In this document: one piece after another, positions 6,331-51,629 of the stretch
How positions within the stretch are numbered: the first letter of the stretch is position 1
How the letters are laid out: every line of letters begins with the position of its first letter
Source: Acidimicrobiia bacterium
GTDB lineage: Bacteria; Actinomycetota; Acidimicrobiia; UBA2766
Direction of reading: 5' to 3'
Assembly: GCA_020850945.1 (NCBI GenBank)
Contig: JADZDR010000061.1
Coordinates: 62,001-126,000 of the forward strand
DNA length: 64,000 bases
Program-made: the position numbers and the translations under genes
Notes under the pieces: model-generated
Databases searched by the model: none
What the model saw: the letters and a program-made list of their open reading frames with translations, nothing else
What the model was told of the DNA's origin: nothing

Positions 6331-7992
6331 ATGGCTGTGGGACGACACCCGAAGCGGCGCCGCGTGGTGCGCGTCTCGTCCTTCGCCCTGGTTGCCGGCC
6401 TGGTCTTGGGCACGATGGCCGGGGTCGATCCCGCCGAAGGCGCAGCTCCCCCCGACGAGGGGCCTGTCGTCGTCAACCCGTCGGACGACTCGCATGTGCG
6501 CTACTCGAAGTTCCTGAAGTACTGGTACACCTACTACGGCGGCGAAGCCGCCATCCGCGCGGACGGGTGGGTGGATCTCCTCTGGAACCGGAAAGACCGT
6601 GCGGGGTTGATCTTCCCTCTCGGTTCACTGAACCCGACGGTGGACGTGGGCAGGGCCACACTCCGGCTCTACGTGACCGATCCGAGTAGCTCCGGAGGCC
6701 AGGTCTATCCGATCGCAACCCGCTGGAACGAGGAGATGTCGGGAAGGTTCGACAGCTCGCTCGCAGCCATGCTCACTTCGGATTCGATCGCAACGCTCGG
6801 GCCCGTGACCGCGGGTTCGTGGGTGGAGATAGATGTGACGGATGCGGTCCGCGCACACGCGAGCGGTGGCAAGATCGGCTTCGGCATCCTCTCGACGGTC
6901 GCCGACGAGGTCGGGTACGCGTCCAAGGAGCACCCCGGATCACTTGCTCCCGAATTGAGGATCTGGGGTTCCGAGTCCCGTGACCTGTTCGTCATCGGGG
7001 ACTCGTATGCGGCCTTTGCCGCTGGTCGATGCCGCGACCTCCGATCCGATTCGGACACCGAGATCGACTCCATCACAAATCCTCTGACAGGCGAAACCAC
7101 GACATGCAGGCACTGGCGGGTGCTTCCGTCTCGCGGGCTCCTGGGCATCCTGGGCTACTGGCGCTGGAACCTGTATCAGGGTTATGGATCGATGGACCTT
7201 GCCCTTCGAAACGACGACCATGGGTTGGGCCCTGTATCGGTACATCCGTATGCCGTGGCTGGATCGACTGCATACGCGTGGGCGAGCACCAGCAACGCGA
7301 CAGTAGACAGGCTCTGTACGAATGACGGAAGTCCAATCGACATCTCCGGCAATCCGCTTGTGGGTGGGATTGCCATTGCTTCACTTCTCTACTGGTACGA
7401 CTGCCCGGCGCTGCTCGGGCGTGTCTTGCAGCAGATCTCCGACTCGGCGAATCCCATCGTCTGGCTACAGCTCGGGGGCAACGATCTCCATCTCCGCCTG
7501 TCCACGGGGCAGGACTACGACTCCCCCGACGACGGCTCCAACTGGGATTCGTTCTTCTCGGAATACGAAGAGGGTATTCGATCTCTGATCAACAGGATCA
7601 ATGCTGCATCACAGGGTACAGCCACGATAATCCTCCCCAGCTACGCGCCACTCCCGGGTAGATCCGACTGGGAGTCGTGCCATGCAAGCAACCCGGAGGT
7701 CGATCCCGTCCACTGGCTAAACCCTGAGGCTGACTGGTCCACTGCAACCGCCACTGAACAGGCAGCGGCTGTAGCGAAGCTGGACGAGCTTGCCGGAACG
7801 GGAAACCAGACCGAGAGTGTTCCCGGCTTCGCCGGTGTGATCGCCGGAATCGCCGCCGACTACCCGAATGTCGAGTATGTGGACATGCGCCAGTTCAGTG
7901 CCGCTTATCAGCCGCCGGACTGCTTCCATCCCACGATGGAGTCCTTCGACTTCTACGTGAGAGAGGTCCTGCACCGGGTGTTCGATCAGTGA
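6331..7992 (+). CDS. Secreted SGNH/GDSL hydrolase with N-terminal DNRLRE-like domain
   Basis: 553 residues from the ATG at 6331, which directly precedes a classic signal peptide (basic MAVGRHPKRRR, then a hydrophobic stretch ending near PAEGA). About residues 45-215 resemble the DNRLRE beta-sandwich of secreted proteins (ATLRLYVTDPSS, WVEIDVTDAVRAH). Then come SGNH blocks: FVIGDSYAAF (nucleophile Ser), LQLGGNDLHLR (block III Gly/Asn) and a C-terminal DCFHPTMESF (Asp and His). It is probably an extracellular esterase, lipase or carbohydrate deacetylase; the substrate is unknown. The frame could extend upstream to a GTG at 6226, but that adds a non-signal-like tail. The 3' half is visibly AT-richer than surrounding genes, so horizontal transfer is possible. 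Confidence 0.85.
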   Translation: MAVGRHPKRRRVVRVSSFALVAGLVLGTMAGVDPAEGAAPPDEGPVVVNPSDDSHVRYSKFLKYWYTYYGGEAAIRADGWVDLLWNRKDRAGLIFPLGSLNPTVDVGRATLRLYVTDPSSSGGQVYPIATRWNEEMSGRFDSSLAAMLTSDSIATLGPVTAGSWVEIDVTDAVRAHASGGKIGFGILSTVADEVGYASKEHPGSLAPELRIWGSESRDLFVIGDSYAAFAAGRCRDLRSDSDTEIDSITNPLTGETTTCRHWRVLPSRGLLGILGYWRWNLYQGYGSMDLALRNDDHGLGPVSVHPYAVAGSTAYAWASTSNATVDRLCTNDGSPIDISGNPLVGGIAIASLLYWYDCPALLGRVLQQISDSANPIVWLQLGGNDLHLRLSTGQDYDSPDDGSNWDSFFSEYEEGIRSLINRINAASQGTATIILPSYAPLPGRSDWESCHASNPEVDPVHWLNPEADWSTATATEQAAAVAKLDELAGTGNQTESVPGFAGVIAGIAADYPNVEYVDMRQFSAAYQPPDCFHPTMESFDFYVREVLHRVFDQ

Positions 7993-10466: not shown

Positions 10467-10484
10467 GAATAACGAACGTTATCC
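10467..10484. promoter_or_regulatory. Palindrome GAATAACGAACGTTATCC upstream of the diiron operon
   Basis: The arms ATAACG (10469-10474) and CGTTAT (10477-10482) flank AA, and one further pair on each side also nearly matches. It lies 33-49 bp before the ATG at 10516 in an otherwise GC-rich gap. Its size and spacing are typical of a TetR/MarR-type operator. No regulator gene is adjacent. Confidence 0.45.
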
Positions 10485-10515: not shown

Positions 10516-11643
10516 ATGACCGAACTGACGATCGACTTCGACTACATCGACCGCGTGGGGGAGGGGAAGCTCGACCTCGAGTGGCTGCACTCCTGGAACC
10601 ACGAGGTGGGCGAGAAGGTCACGCCCTCCCGCGTCGGGCTCACGATGAAGGACATCGCCGTCGGCCGGTACGGGGACATCCCCGACACGGCTCCGATGCG
10701 CACGATGGCCCCCCGGGGCGGCGAACGCGAGGACGTGATGCCCGACATGGGCTACCTCCTCAACACGAAGGCGGACGTGTGGGCAGAGAACGTCATGGAC
10801 CTCTACGAGGAGGCCGTGAGCCGGCAGTGGTCTGCGACTCGTGACATCGACTGGAGCTCCATCCCCGACCTCCCGCCCGATCTCGAGCACGCCCTCTGTC
10901 AGGTCTGCACCCTCCTCTCCGAGGTCGAGATGATCGCGTCGGACTTCCCGGCGAAGTGGATGTGGCAGATCAACCACGACTTCGTCGAGGTGAAGATGTT
11001 CCGCGCCACCCAGATCATGGACGAGTCCCGGCACACGGAGGTCTTCCGCAAGCGGGCCCTCGCCAAGGGAGGCGGGCTCGGCCGCTCCAAGGCCGTGACC
11101 GAGGAGTTCCTGCGCCTCATCCTCGACGCCGAGACGTACTCGGAGGGATCGGCCCTCATGCACCTGCTGGGCGAGGGCATGGTGCTCTCCCTCTTCCGGG
11201 CGGGGGAGCTCCTCTCGCCGAGCCCCGTCGAGAAGAAGATCTTCCGGCTCTGCATGCAGGACGAGGCCCGCCACGTCGCCTACGGCACGATGCACCTGCG
11301 CTACGCACTCGCTCAGGATCCCGACAAGGCGGAGGAGTACCACGAGTACCTCGACAAGGGGGAGCGGATCCTCGCCGCGCTCTTCACGATCCCCGAGGCC
11401 GTCGAGCCTCTCATGATCCTCGCCGCAGGCGGTGAGGAGGAGGCCGCAGCCCTGGGTGCGATGGCAGCGGGCATGCTCCAGACACGCGTGATCGAGGAGT
11501 ACCTCGCCCGCTGTGACAGGGCGGGCATCGACCGCCGCTCCCGCATCCAGATCCCGGGTGTGATCGGTGGCTACGACCCGGTGGAACAGGGCGTGACGAG
11601 CGACGCCGCCCTCGCCGGCTCGGCCGGAACAGGGGGTGCCTGA
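10516..11643 (+). CDS. Ferritin-like diiron protein (R2/AurF-like oxygenase candidate)
   Basis: 375 residues. The likely metal ligands are spaced as in four-helix diiron carboxylate proteins: Glu136 (LLSEVEMIASDF), Glu170/His173 (IMDESRHTEVF), Glu220 (LLGEGMVL) and Glu250/His253 (QDEARHVAYG). This two-fold E...ExxH pattern fits R2-like oxygenases or oxidases such as AurF rather than storage ferritin. The ATG at 10516 is chosen over an upstream in-frame ATG at 10360, because the added 52 residues are low-complexity and would cross the palindrome at 10467. The stop overlaps the next ATG (TGATG), so translation is coupled to the SCP2-like gene; a ferredoxin follows. The context suggests an oxygen-using reaction on a lipid or steroid with a dedicated electron donor. 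The substrate is unknown. Confidence 0.8.
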   Translation: MTELTIDFDYIDRVGEGKLDLEWLHSWNHEVGEKVTPSRVGLTMKDIAVGRYGDIPDTAPMRTMAPRGGEREDVMPDMGYLLNTKADVWAENVMDLYEEAVSRQWSATRDIDWSSIPDLPPDLEHALCQVCTLLSEVEMIASDFPAKWMWQINHDFVEVKMFRATQIMDESRHTEVFRKRALAKGGGLGRSKAVTEEFLRLILDAETYSEGSALMHLLGEGMVLSLFRAGELLSPSPVEKKIFRLCMQDEARHVAYGTMHLRYALAQDPDKAEEYHEYLDKGERILAALFTIPEAVEPLMILAAGGEEEAAALGAMAAGMLQTRVIEEYLARCDRAGIDRRSRIQIPGVIGGYDPVEQGVTSDAALAGSAGTGGA

Positions 11644-12089
11644 TGGCGGAGTTCCCCTCGGGCGAGTGGTTCGACCTCCTCGCCGCCAAGGCAAACGAGC
11701 ATGCAGACGAGTTGGAGGCCTTCGGCTTCTCCAACATCCGCCTCGCATGTCGCGTGAACGGACTGCCCGACGGTGACCGCACCTTCGGGATCGGCATCGA
11801 CGGCTACGACGTGTTCAGCGGTGGCGAGATCGACCCCGCCACCTGGAACGCCGACTGCACGCTGGAAGGCCCCACCGTCGCCTGGTGCGAGATGGTGTCG
11901 AACATCGGTGCGAACGGCGGTGCCGACCTCCAGCACACGCTGAACGCGCTCAGCCTCGCCGAGCTCCCGATGCGTGTCGTCGCCGACGACCCGATGGGAC
12001 GGGACCTCTTCTTCCGTTTCAACCAGACCCTGCAGGAGATCTTCGACCTCGCGGCAGAGATCCCGACGGAGATCGTCGCCACCGCGTAG
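11643..12089 (+). CDS. SCP2-like (sterol carrier fold) protein
   Basis: 148 residues with no signal peptide or membrane segment. The pattern resembles SCP2-type hydrophobic-ligand proteins: an N-terminal helix, a beta-rich middle ([28 protein letters not shown]), then helices with [19 protein letters not shown] and a C-terminal amphipathic helix. The ATG overlaps the diiron gene's stop by one base. A role in presenting or holding a hydrophobic substrate for the diiron protein is inferred from this coupling. The assignment is by pattern only; it could instead be an uncharacterised small actinobacterial family. Confidence 0.6.
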
Positions 12090-12109
12090 AAGTAGGCTCG
12101 GGAGCAGGT

Positions 12110-12514
12110 ATGAGCGTTCAGATCCTGCCCGACTGCCTCGGTTGCGGGGCATGTGAGTTCGCATGTGACCGCGGCGCGATCACGCAGGGGACGGACTTCC
12201 GCGTCGCGTACGTCGTCGATCCCCTCCTCTGCAACGACTGCGGGGACTGCCTCCCTGTCTGTCCCGTGGACGTGATCGTCGAGAACACGGAATGGGCTGT
12301 CTGCTACGCGCGGGGCTGTCCCCTCAGCAGCTCGAGGTACGAGGGCTGGGAATGCACGCGGGGTGAGCAGTACTGCCCGCGCTGCAGCACGATGCTGTGG
12401 CGGGAACCGGGCGGCACCGAGTGGCGCTGCCCGCGCTGCGACGACGCCCGCAAGGTCGCCTGCCCCAAGATCCGCAAGGCTCTGACCCTCGGCCTGCCCC
12501 TCGTCCCGGACTGA
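12110..12514 (+). CDS. 2[4Fe-4S] ferredoxin with C-terminal zinc-ribbon-like domain
   Basis: 134 residues from the ATG at 12110 (SD GGAG 6 nt before). Two ferredoxin motifs are visible: C9-x2-C12-x2-C15-x3-C19, and C41-x2-C44-x2-C47-x3-C51 followed by Pro. After a linker containing Cys65, Cys70 and Cys82 come two CPRC knuckles (C89/C92 and C107/C110), as in a zinc ribbon or rubredoxin-like site. The extra metal site makes it longer than a plain bacterial ferredoxin. Third gene of the diiron/SCP2 operon (20-nt gap) and its likely electron donor. A strong hairpin follows at 12529-12579. An upstream in-frame extension is rejected because it overlaps the SCP2 gene. Confidence 0.85.
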
Positions 12515-12528
12515 CCTCAGTCTCCCCA

Positions 12529-12579
12529 CCACGTGGGCGTACCCAGCCACATCCAGTGTGGTTGAGTACGCCCACGTGG
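12529..12579. repeat. 23-bp-stem palindromic element (dispersed family, copy A)
   Basis: A long inverted repeat with arms 12529-12551 and 12557-12579 around a 5-nt loop. The outer 14 bp (CCACGTGGGCGTAC and its complement) are perfect; the two inner mismatches become G-U pairs in RNA. It sits just after the ferredoxin gene and could terminate or protect the transcript. The right arm is identical over 23 bp, in inverse orientation, to an element at 51574-51596, so this is a mobile or repeated unit rather than a private terminator. Confidence 0.8.
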
Positions 12580-12624
12580 CAACCCTCGGGGACTCGGCCG
12601 CGAGCCCCTAGCCTGTTCCCGTCC

Positions 12625-13257
12625 ATGACGTTCCGCAAGAAGACCTACAGCCTCCGCCGGTTCGCCGGCGACGTCACCGGCCTCTTCGGCCGCCTCGGTG
12701 AGCTGCGCCGCATCCAGTCCGGCGCGGCGATCGACCCCGCATTCCGCGAGGAGATCATGGTCGCCGTCGCACGTGCGAACGAGTGCCGCTACTGCATCTT
12801 CGCGCACGAGACGGCGGCACGCGAGGAAGGCGTCGCACAGGCAACCCTCGACGCGCTCGCCCGCGGAGAGCTGACGGCAACCGACCTCGAGCCACGCGTC
12901 ACCGTGGCCCTGGAATATGCAAGTGCGCTCGCCGCGTGCGACTTCGGGCCGGTCGACCCCGTCCTCGAGGGAGAAGTCGTCGCCCTGCACGGAGAGGACG
13001 GGCGCCGCACGATCGAGACCGTGGCACGCCTCATGACCGTGATGAACCTCACAGGCAACACCGTCGACGCCCTGTTCTCGCGCCTCGGGGGCGATCCCGC
13101 ACCCGACAGCCGGATCTGCGACGAGCTCGTCCTCACCTACGTGTGGGCCTGGGGAGCAGCCCTCACGTCGTTGAACCTGATGCGAGCCCGCGACGAATCC
13201 CCCACGCGGCTGTTCGAGTCCTTCCGGGAGTTCGCGGCCGAGACCGAGGGGGCGTGA
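12625..13257 (+). CDS. AhpD/carboxymuconolactone decarboxylase-family protein
   Basis: 210 residues from the ATG at 12625. The AhpD-like redox motif is clear: ANECRYCIFAHETAAREEGV holds the Cys-x2-Cys pair and the following His. All-helical family; members are alkylhydroperoxidase-like or decarboxylases. An antioxidant role in thiol-dependent peroxide reduction is plausible beside oxygenase genes, but the partner is unknown. There is no strong SD. The 5' part lies just after the palindromic element, so expression is probably separate from the diiron operon. Confidence 0.8.
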   Translation: MTFRKKTYSLRRFAGDVTGLFGRLGELRRIQSGAAIDPAFREEIMVAVARANECRYCIFAHETAAREEGVAQATLDALARGELTATDLEPRVTVALEYASALAACDFGPVDPVLEGEVVALHGEDGRRTIETVARLMTVMNLTGNTVDALFSRLGGDPAPDSRICDELVLTYVWAWGAALTSLNLMRARDESPTRLFESFREFAAETEGA

Positions 13258-13262
13258 CCCGC

Positions 13263-13380
13263 ATGCCGAAGCGCCTCGTCGCTGTCATCGCCCTCCTGTG
13301 CGACGTCGCCGCGTGCGGGTCCGGCACCCGAGAACGGAGAGGAATCCGAGACCCTCACGTTCCACGTCGAAGTCGACTGA
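13263..13380 (+). pseudogene. Possible frameshifted lipoprotein remnant
   Basis: The ATG at 13263 opens with MPKRLVAVIALL and a lipobox-like VAAC, a convincing lipoprotein leader. Its own frame then continues as Arg-rich nonsense. The other frame, from 13321, reads PENGEESETLTFHVEVD and stops at 13378. Joined by one frameshift they would give a ~38-residue secreted fragment. It could be a gene remnant, a sequencing error or chance. It starts 3 nt after the AhpD-like stop. Confidence 0.3.
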
Positions 13381-13459
13381 GCCGCGCGGCAGGTCGCGCC
13401 CACCCCCGGACCGAATCTTTCATCATCGGACTTGGTGGACTTCCGACAGGGAGGCTGAG

Positions 13460-15022
13460 GTGGGAATCTCGAGACGCAAACTCCTCCGCGCCGGCGCGGC
13501 GCTCGGAACGGTCGCAGCCGGCGCGGCTGTGTTCGACTGGTCGCAGGGCCCCGCAGCCCTCGGCGTGCGGGAAGTCCCCCAGCCCCGCCTGATCGACCCG
13601 GCCGACTGCCCGATCGACCACATCGTCGTCCTCATGATGGAGAACCGCTCCTACGACCATGTGCTCGGGCGGCTGCCCGGCACCCACGGCCTCACCCGCG
13701 ACATGTCCTGTGGCGACGACGACGGCATCCCGATCCACGTGCACCGCGTGAAGGACATGACGTGCACCGTCGGGGACCTCCCGCACGGCTTCGAGGACGG
13801 CATGCTCTGTTACAACGAGGGACGCAACGACGGGTTCGTACGCTCGAACGGCACTCAGTCAATGGGATACATGTCGCCCCTCGAAGTCCCCTGGATGTAC
13901 TCGCTGGCCCTCGAGTACACGGTATTCGACCACTGGCACTGCTCACTCCTCGCCGGCACGTGGCCGAACCGCCGCTACCTCTGCGCGGGCACGACCGGCG
14001 GGAGCCGCACGGACGACTTCGCGCCGGGCAAGTTCGGCTACTGGGAGCGGACCGTCTTCCATCAGCTCGCCGCCGCCGGGATCAGCTGGGGCGTCTACTA
14101 CACGGACGTGCCCTTCCCCGCCCTGTACCCGGATCTCCTCCTGCGCCATGCGCGCAACTTCAAGCCGGTGCGCGAGCTGTACCGGGACCTCGCGGCGGGA
14201 CGCCTCCCCCAGGTCGTGATGATCGAGCCCGGCTACCTCGTCGGCACGGACGACCATCCACCCCGCAACACGCAGCCGGCCCAGAGGTTCATGCACGACG
14301 TCGTGGAGGCGGTCCGCCTCTCGCCCCTCTGGCCCCGCACCGCCCTCGTGATCACCTACGACGAATGGGGCGGCTTCTTCGACCACGTGCCGCCACCCGA
14401 ACTGGCCGACGACCATCCGGATCTGGGCCGGCCGGTCGGCTTTCGCGTGCCCGCCCTCATGGTGAGCCCGTGGGCGCACCGTGGCGCCGTGTCCCACCGG
14501 GTCAAGGACCACACGTCATGGCTCAAGTTCGTGCAGTGGCGCTTCGGCCTTCCCGCCCTCACGACCCGCAACGAGACTGCGGACAACCTGCTCGAGGCGC
14601 TCGACTTCTCCTCTCCCATGCGCACCGATCTCGCACCGCTGCCGACTCCGCGCGTCGACAAGAGCCTGAGCGCCCTGTGCGAGCTCGCCCAGTACCTCCG
14701 TCCCGAGGACGACTACGAGTTCGACCTCCCCGGCGGTGAGGGGCCTGAGTCGGAGGCCGCCTGGAATCTGGGGAGCGTGCGGGGGGAGGTCTTCGAGATC
14801 GCCCACGCGATGGGGCGCGCGCCGGGTGCGCCGGACATGGCCGTGATCGAAGCCGCCGCCAGGAACGAGCAGGTGAGTGGACCCCAGTTCCTCGCGAAGT
14901 CGGTGTCGGCCGGCGTGATCCCCGCCGAACTCGACCTGCGCGGGGCGGAGAACGGCGCAACCCCCAGCCCCTACCTCGCCGAGGGAGACGTCCCCGCCTC
15001 ACCGGCGTGGCTCGACGCGTGA
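13460..15022 (+). CDS. Tat-exported phosphoesterase (phospholipase C / acid phosphatase family)
   Basis: 520 residues. The GTG at 13460, with SD GGGAGG 6 nt before, gives [12 protein letters not shown], a twin-arginine signal followed by a hydrophobic run. The mature part starts with [19 protein letters not shown], the metal-binding N-terminal signature of the PF04185 phosphoesterases. Later come [18 protein letters not shown] and [10 protein letters not shown], which supply further metal ligands. The family includes mycobacterial phospholipases C and AcpA-type phosphatases, acting outside the membrane on phospholipids or phosphate esters. The ORF runs further upstream, but that region is Arg/Pro-rich and unlike a signal. 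The substrate cannot be told from sequence. Confidence 0.9.
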
Positions 15023-51552: not shown

Positions 51553-51573
51553 CCTCCTCCGCCCGGACCCCCC

Positions 51574-51624
51574 CCACGTGGGCGTACTCAACCACAACAG
51601 GCGTGTTTCAGTACGCCCACGTAG
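51574..51624. repeat. Palindromic element (dispersed family, copy B)
   Basis: The left arm 51574-51596 is identical over 23 bp, as reverse complement, to the right arm at 12557-12579. Its own right arm (51604-51624) pairs over ACGTGGGCGTACT. It lies after the LysR gene and before the convergent sulfatase end. Confidence 0.75.
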
Positions 51625-51629
51625 CCCGG

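Follow-up and report, generated by a model that had tools for sequence, protein, structure and literature searches.

A conserved pairing of a predicted diiron protein with an SCP2-fold protein, joined by a tailed two-cluster ferredoxin, in Acidimicrobiia and other bacteria

The window, by which we mean the whole 64,000-nucleotide stretch of DNA analyzed here, comes from a 3.9 Mb draft genome of an Acidimicrobiia bacterium and contains three consecutive forward-strand genes, which lie where an earlier sequence-only reading had placed them. They are P0001 (10516-11643), which codes for a 375-residue ferritin-like protein of the diiron oxygenase type, as assigned from its translation, orthologs, AlphaFold model and PDB matches; P0002 (11643-12089), which codes for a small SCP2-fold protein of 148 residues, as assigned from its translation, model and PDB matches; and P0004 (12110-12514), which codes for a 134-residue 2[4Fe-4S] ferredoxin with a Cys-rich tail, as assigned from translation, Pfam and alignment. 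The TGA stop of P0001 (11641-11643) shares one base with the ATG of P0002 (starting at 11643), which makes the translational coupling proposed in that reading plausible, and P0004 starts after a further gap of 20 nt. Directly 3' of its stop lies a strong hairpin (12528-12580; -50.6 kcal/mol, z -8.0), possibly the operon's 3' end (a terminator) or else a dispersed or mobile repeat element; the hairpin (CACGTGGGCGTAC...GTACGCCCACGTG) is found dispersed between genes, recurring at 51573-51625 of the window and near position 6600 of locus L105. The adjacent P0003 (CMD/AhpD-like, 12625-13257) was considered as a fourth member and rejected, as it accompanies the trio at only one other locus, there at a distance of nearly 3 kb. 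It is followed by genes for a protein resembling phosphocholine-type phospholipase C and acid phosphatases, with scores under the model cut-offs (13298-15022), and for a cytochrome P450 (15036-16349), whose top solved match is PksS and whose matches include CYP125/CYP142-type steroid enzymes.

The AlphaFold model of P0001 (pLDDT 86) places the predicted metal ligands on four consecutive long helices: E138 (10927-10929) on helix 121-149, E170 and H173 as an ExxH motif (11023-11034) on helix 154-183, E220 (11173-11175) on helix 208-233, and E250 with H253 as a second ExxH motif (11263-11274) on helix 237-267. This E, ExxH, E, ExxH succession along a four-helix bundle is that of ferritin-like diiron proteins, as expected from the sequence-only reading, which had named all of these residues except the first: it proposed E136, a position occupied by Met in subfamily B and by Gly in one relative, whereas position 138 is Glu wherever the site is intact. 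All six positions are invariant in an alignment of 28 relatives of P0001 and are kept in 54 distinct metal-site-intact sequences. Model and alignment thus support the prediction of a two-metal site within a ferritin-type bundle in P0001, presumably one of dinuclear iron, though by analogy with R2lox it could alternatively be a Mn/Fe site.

In structural comparisons with the PDB, the model best matches the cyanobacterial aldehyde-deformylating oxygenase ADO (Z 21.4, 2.2 A over 212 residues, covering P0001 residues 117-350), followed by VlmB (Z 19.7), R2lox (about 18.9) and methane monooxygenase (18.6). These matches leave uncovered an N-terminal extension (residues 1 to about 95), which is itself conserved and includes an invariant A65-P66-R67-G68 stretch. 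ADO is a ferredoxin-driven enzyme with a hydrophobic substrate; P0001 differs from it in this N-terminal extension, in an identity of about 12-16%, in its obligate SCP2-fold partner (see below) and in the absence of Ald_deCOase (PF11266) from the Pfam families reported for it at E-values up to 1. Searches against Pfam and NCBIfam recovered sub-threshold matches only (AurF, DUF455, R2, R2lox), among which the NCBIfam R2lox equivalog misses its cut-off by a wide margin (34.7 bits versus 194). To our knowledge, R2lox, which holds a lipid ligand, has neither an SCP2 nor a ferredoxin partner. In one case an R2lox has been linked to alkane oxidation (PMC10867098).

A profile search of PDB sequences singles out the azoxy synthase VlmB (6d9f/8wvr; E 3e-8) as the closest solved relative by sequence, with the two DExRH motifs aligned (DEARH in VlmB opposite E170-H173), and weak matches to the AurF Pfam family are seen in 22 of 28 family members. 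These similarities raise the alternative that P0001 works on a small polar metabolite as an N-oxygenase or oxidase, in the manner of AurF or VlmB, with the SCP2-like protein playing a structural part. We regard this as quite improbable: P0001 itself scores 17.4 bits against AurF (PF11583), below the gathering score of 29.6; its gene context differs from that of the VlmB/AurF-type enzymes and is devoid of conserved biosynthetic genes; by fold it matches ADO, which acts on fatty aldehydes, no less well; and the AurF-like paralogs of the window's own genome fall on a long branch separate from the P0001 family.

For P0002, the kinship to SCP2 stands out in the fold but barely shows in the sequence. 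The predicted structure (pLDDT 96.3) finds the Thermus SCP2 protein 2cx7 as its top match (Z 14.0, 2.3 A over 124 residues), well above other families, with TT1886 next; lower matches are to SCP2 of eukaryotes, to alkylsulfatase SCP2 domains and to UbiJ (UbiJ-SCP2 Z 8.3). The label "SCP2-like" given from sequence thus holds at the level of fold; at the level of sequence neither Pfam nor NCBIfam offers a usable assignment of P0002, which has no match to SCP2 (PF02036), and a relative in L046 attains 15.6 bits against a gathering score of 21.3. With both P0001 and P0002 lying under the Pfam thresholds, annotation all but misses the system.

P0004 is recognized by Pfam as a 4Fe-4S dicluster ferredoxin (Fer4_7, E 1.3e-8). 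It has the two-cluster and zinc-ribbon-tail organization ascribed to it earlier: two CxxCxxCxxxC motifs (C9-C12-C15-C19 and C41-C44-C47-C51; 12134-12262) are followed by a zinc-ribbon-like tail (12302-12463; Pfam, alignment) with a CxxC...CxxC pair (C89/C92 and C107/C110) and four more invariant cysteines (C65, C70, C82, C118). All 16 cysteines, eight of the clusters and eight of the tail, are kept in 15 of 15 aligned ferredoxins, and the unlinked paralogs of P0004 that were checked keep the same tail cysteines (for C118, going by the aligned CP motif).

When 84,980 species genomes were scanned, 24 orthologous loci were recovered, with P0001 orthologs of 51-86% identity, in metagenome-assembled genomes (MAGs) of Acidimicrobiia and Actinomycetes and in MAGs labeled Deltaproteobacteria; two further labels, the Acidobacteria of ATN2 and ATN3, are at odds with their proteins, which group with those of the window. 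The SCP2-like gene is present at all 24 loci and lies directly downstream of the diiron gene at 23. At the remaining one, L035, there are two divergent diiron genes, and the SCP2-like gene follows the other copy, such that the two may share it; both copies (L035:6485-9044, in a deltaproteobacterial MAG) have intact metal sites. The tailed ferredoxin is next in line at most actinobacterial loci and, where missing from the locus, was found elsewhere in the genome (G003, the genome of L020, and G278, in its second cluster). It is absent, as a full-length protein, from the seven deltaproteobacterial genomes searched. Apart from the trio, no family recurs in the flanks of most of the 25 loci compared, and the flanks differ from one another.

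Genome surveys give the same picture. In the class survey, relatives of P0001 are encoded by 24 of 296 genomes, and relatives of P0002 by those same 24 and one more with a marginal match (25 in all; Fisher p 2e-34), while the full-length tailed ferredoxin occurs in 22 of the 24 genomes with the diiron gene versus 1 of the 272 others (p 7e-30); in the deltaproteobacterial phylum the same nine of 297 genomes hold both partners (p 2e-17), all these p values treating genomes as independent, which shared ancestry contradicts. Both surveys together thus place P0001 relatives in 33 of 593 genomes and P0002 relatives in the same 33, with the one marginal extra. In the fragmented genomes G196 and G211, one diiron copy is on a different contig from the SCP2-like gene, and the gene after the SCP2-like gene codes for a ferredoxin without the tail. 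Since the presence of the system is patchy and its flanks differ, the linkage calls for more than common descent. Conservation of the trio in relatives, a check set in the sequence-only reading, is upheld beyond chance, with the strict linkage being that of the pair, whose members always occur together: as the ferredoxin is missing from the deltaproteobacterial relatives, the diiron/SCP2 pair is the core, obligate unit, and the ferredoxin is a feature of the actinobacterial branch, where it tracks the pair but is sometimes unlinked. A search for plasmid-borne relatives gave three weak partial matches (27-30%), annotated as "ferritin-like domain-containing protein".

Taken with the predicted folds, this co-occurrence makes it somewhat probable that the trio is a diiron oxygenase of the multicomponent type, acting on a hydrophobic substrate presented by the SCP2-fold protein. 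The P0002 cavity would bind the substrate and present it to P0001, a role suggested by its fold and its obligate co-occurrence; P0004 would deliver electrons, via a reductase, to reduce the P0001 site; O2 activation there would lead to hydroxylation or some other oxidation of the substrate. The lack of a reductase gene in the operon and the possibility of a Mn/Fe site weigh against this reading. The oxygenase, substrate carrier and electron donor proposed from the sequence thus still make the best reading of the genes, with a diiron/SCP2 core, several operon architectures and the operator links described below now added to it.

The operons fall into several architectures. Type A, that of the window, has the order diiron, SCP2, ferredoxin. 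Type B combines a diiron gene with two Amidohydro_2 genes, hydantoinase/acetophenone-carboxylase-like genes and the SCP2-like gene, with the ferredoxin in two cases; it is present also in the window's own genome (L043; G000:C22:112000-131000), where a diiron protein 43% identical to P0001 is encoded with two Amidohydro_2 proteins, an SCP2-like protein and divergently placed hydantoinase A/B genes. The deltaproteobacterial loci have the order diiron-SCP2 or SCP2-diiron-diiron. In six tandem operons of the latter kind (L082/L093, L083/L094, L084/L095, L085/L096, L091 and L092) the second copy lacks four to six of the six ligands, with SQAGAL, EHHGTQ, QALAAQ (twice), AQHNTQ or AGLAAQ in place of EEHEEH. 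Such joint loss of ligands is confined to duplicate copies, which lends indirect support to the predicted dinuclear site of the others, and in the tree the intact and metal-less copies (five each) form sister clades with 100/100 support, though long branches meet at this node, making the exact placement uncertain. By analogy, an intact copy beside a metal-less one suggests the alpha/beta pattern of diiron oxygenases and a dimeric oxygenase, in which case the metal-less second copies would be an independent instance of the split known from methane monooxygenase.

The comparison with methane monooxygenase and PaaABCDE extends to a diiron subunit, a small cofactor-free partner and an iron-sulfur protein, with the metal-less copies of the deltaproteobacterial relatives recalling the beta subunits of the former. 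It is limited by the SCP2 fold of the small partner and by the ferredoxin being a 2[4Fe-4S] protein with a Cys-rich tail. Furthermore, the window operon has one diiron-type gene, the beta-like copy being confined to the deltaproteobacterial relatives, and there is neither a reductase gene in the operon nor any other gene conserved around the trio. The same comparison suggests another role for P0002, namely that of a regulatory or effector subunit like MMOB or TmoD, which would dock on P0001 and gate O2 activation. P0002 is the strictest partner of P0001, present even without the ferredoxin, and the relatives have an alpha/beta-like duplicate, an arrangement that known effector proteins accompany; most solved relatives of P0002, however, are lipid-binding proteins, and we know of no effector protein of multicomponent monooxygenases with an SCP2 fold, those known to us having other folds. 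We therefore consider an effector role unlikely, while noting that carrier and effector roles are compatible with each other.

For the favored role of P0002 as a carrier, a precedent is presented by the SCP2 domain of UbiJ, which has been proposed to hold the hydrophobic intermediates of the Ubi complex, which has three hydroxylases among its members (PMC9499169). UbiJ carries a coiled-coil tail and is shared by several enzymes, whereas P0002 is a stand-alone protein tied to one enzyme family. The parts of the system belong to known superfamilies, while their combination and the subfamily match no named system tested. In line with the earlier impression that no named system has this trio, we found no description of a diiron/SCP2/ferredoxin system in the literature searched, which takes in few subscription journals.

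Hints as to the pathway come from an operator-like palindrome, ATAACG-AA-CGTTAT (10469-10482), which ends 33 nt before the ATG of the diiron gene. It is the sole match in the window, even with one mismatch allowed (0.00 by chance), and the 3.9 Mb genome has exactly four exact sites and no one-mismatch site, with none for the reversed-pattern control. The second site lies just before a gene for a 933-residue molybdenum enzyme, whose best solved relative is the alpha subunit of ethylbenzene dehydrogenase (E 2.5e-199) and which scores 813 bits with the NCBIfam model for type II DMSO reductases, under that model's cut-off. The third target is the gene of a CrtO/CrtI-like flavoprotein, and the fourth site (L105:5930-5943; G000:C77) lies between a mycothiol maleylpyruvate isomerase-like gene and uncharacterized sequence, with no clear target. 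The palindrome is also found upstream of the diiron gene at L019, L073 and, with one mismatch, L055; among the diiron loci it stands in front of that gene only in the window, its closest genus relative and L073/L055. At L020 it precedes a GntR/FCD gene adjoining the diiron gene, and no site was found at the related L042; the best matches of this GntR protein in the window's genome reach 32%, none of them near the four operator sites. A TetR protein was considered as a constant neighboring regulator and rejected, the nearby regulators being of different families (TetR, GntR/FCD, HTH_31, LuxR-type).

Paralogs of the ferredoxin are encoded near relatives of the 933-residue molybdenum enzyme at L062, L066, L067 and L068, with L067 additionally coding for a 77% relative of the CrtO-like protein, and at L040 a relative of the molybdenum enzyme is encoded about 6.5 kb after the trio. 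From the operator shared with the molybdenum and CrtO-like genes and from this context of the ferredoxin paralogs, we infer that the substrate is probably an isoprenoid, a sterol or another hydrocarbon-like lipid. Against this stand the basis of four sites, one of them (C77) targetless, the presence of the operator before the diiron gene in few relatives, and the location of subfamily B next to genes for amidohydrolases and hydantoinase/acetophenone-carboxylase-like proteins, a setting compatible with a different class of substrate as well. The stigmasterol pathway likewise combines a molybdenum hydroxylase with a flavin desaturase, but since that desaturase is stated to lack similarity to phytoene desaturases (PMC11061730), the pathway is not equated with the operator-linked genes.

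The operator also bears on a further reading, in which the trio is a metal-storage or oxidative-stress module formed by a ferritin-like protein and its own reductant. It would account for the ferritin superfamily fold, yet by sequence and structure P0001 matches the oxygenase branches rather than ferritins, and neither the SCP2 partner nor an operator common to a molybdenum-hydroxylase-type gene fits; we hold it to be very improbable indeed. Building on the favored oxygenase with a lipid carrier, we advance, tentatively and with some doubt, the proposal of an undescribed class of multicomponent diiron oxygenases, in which a stand-alone SCP2-fold lipid carrier takes the place of the small effector, which exists in single-copy and in intact/metal-less versions, and whose substrate, an isoprenoid, sterol or hydrocarbon, is also that of two enzymes of the same regulon, a molybdenum hydroxylase that uses water and a CrtO-like flavoprotein. 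Lipids oxidized by diiron oxygenases are insoluble in water and have to be brought to the enzyme, by a delivery step that is understood for only a minority of these oxygenases; a family constantly accompanied by an SCP2-fold protein would allow the hand-over of substrate to be tested directly, with just two small soluble proteins. The operator-linked genes of the molybdenum enzyme and the CrtO-like flavoprotein, in turn, suggest an unmapped pathway in uncultured Acidimicrobiia.

One branch of the type A operons carries an additional gene between those for the SCP2-like protein and the ferredoxin, coding for a Cys-containing protein of 75-80 residues. This small protein (L053:3937-4173, L054, L055, L070-L073) has the pattern CPxCG...PYGxWEW...PW...C...FHPQ and is without a Pfam family. 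Directly 5' of the ferredoxin gene of L065, there is an open reading frame (L065:5770-6288) in which the first 137 residues of the diiron protein run on into the small Cys protein's tail, and which looks like the remnant of an operon with an internal deletion.
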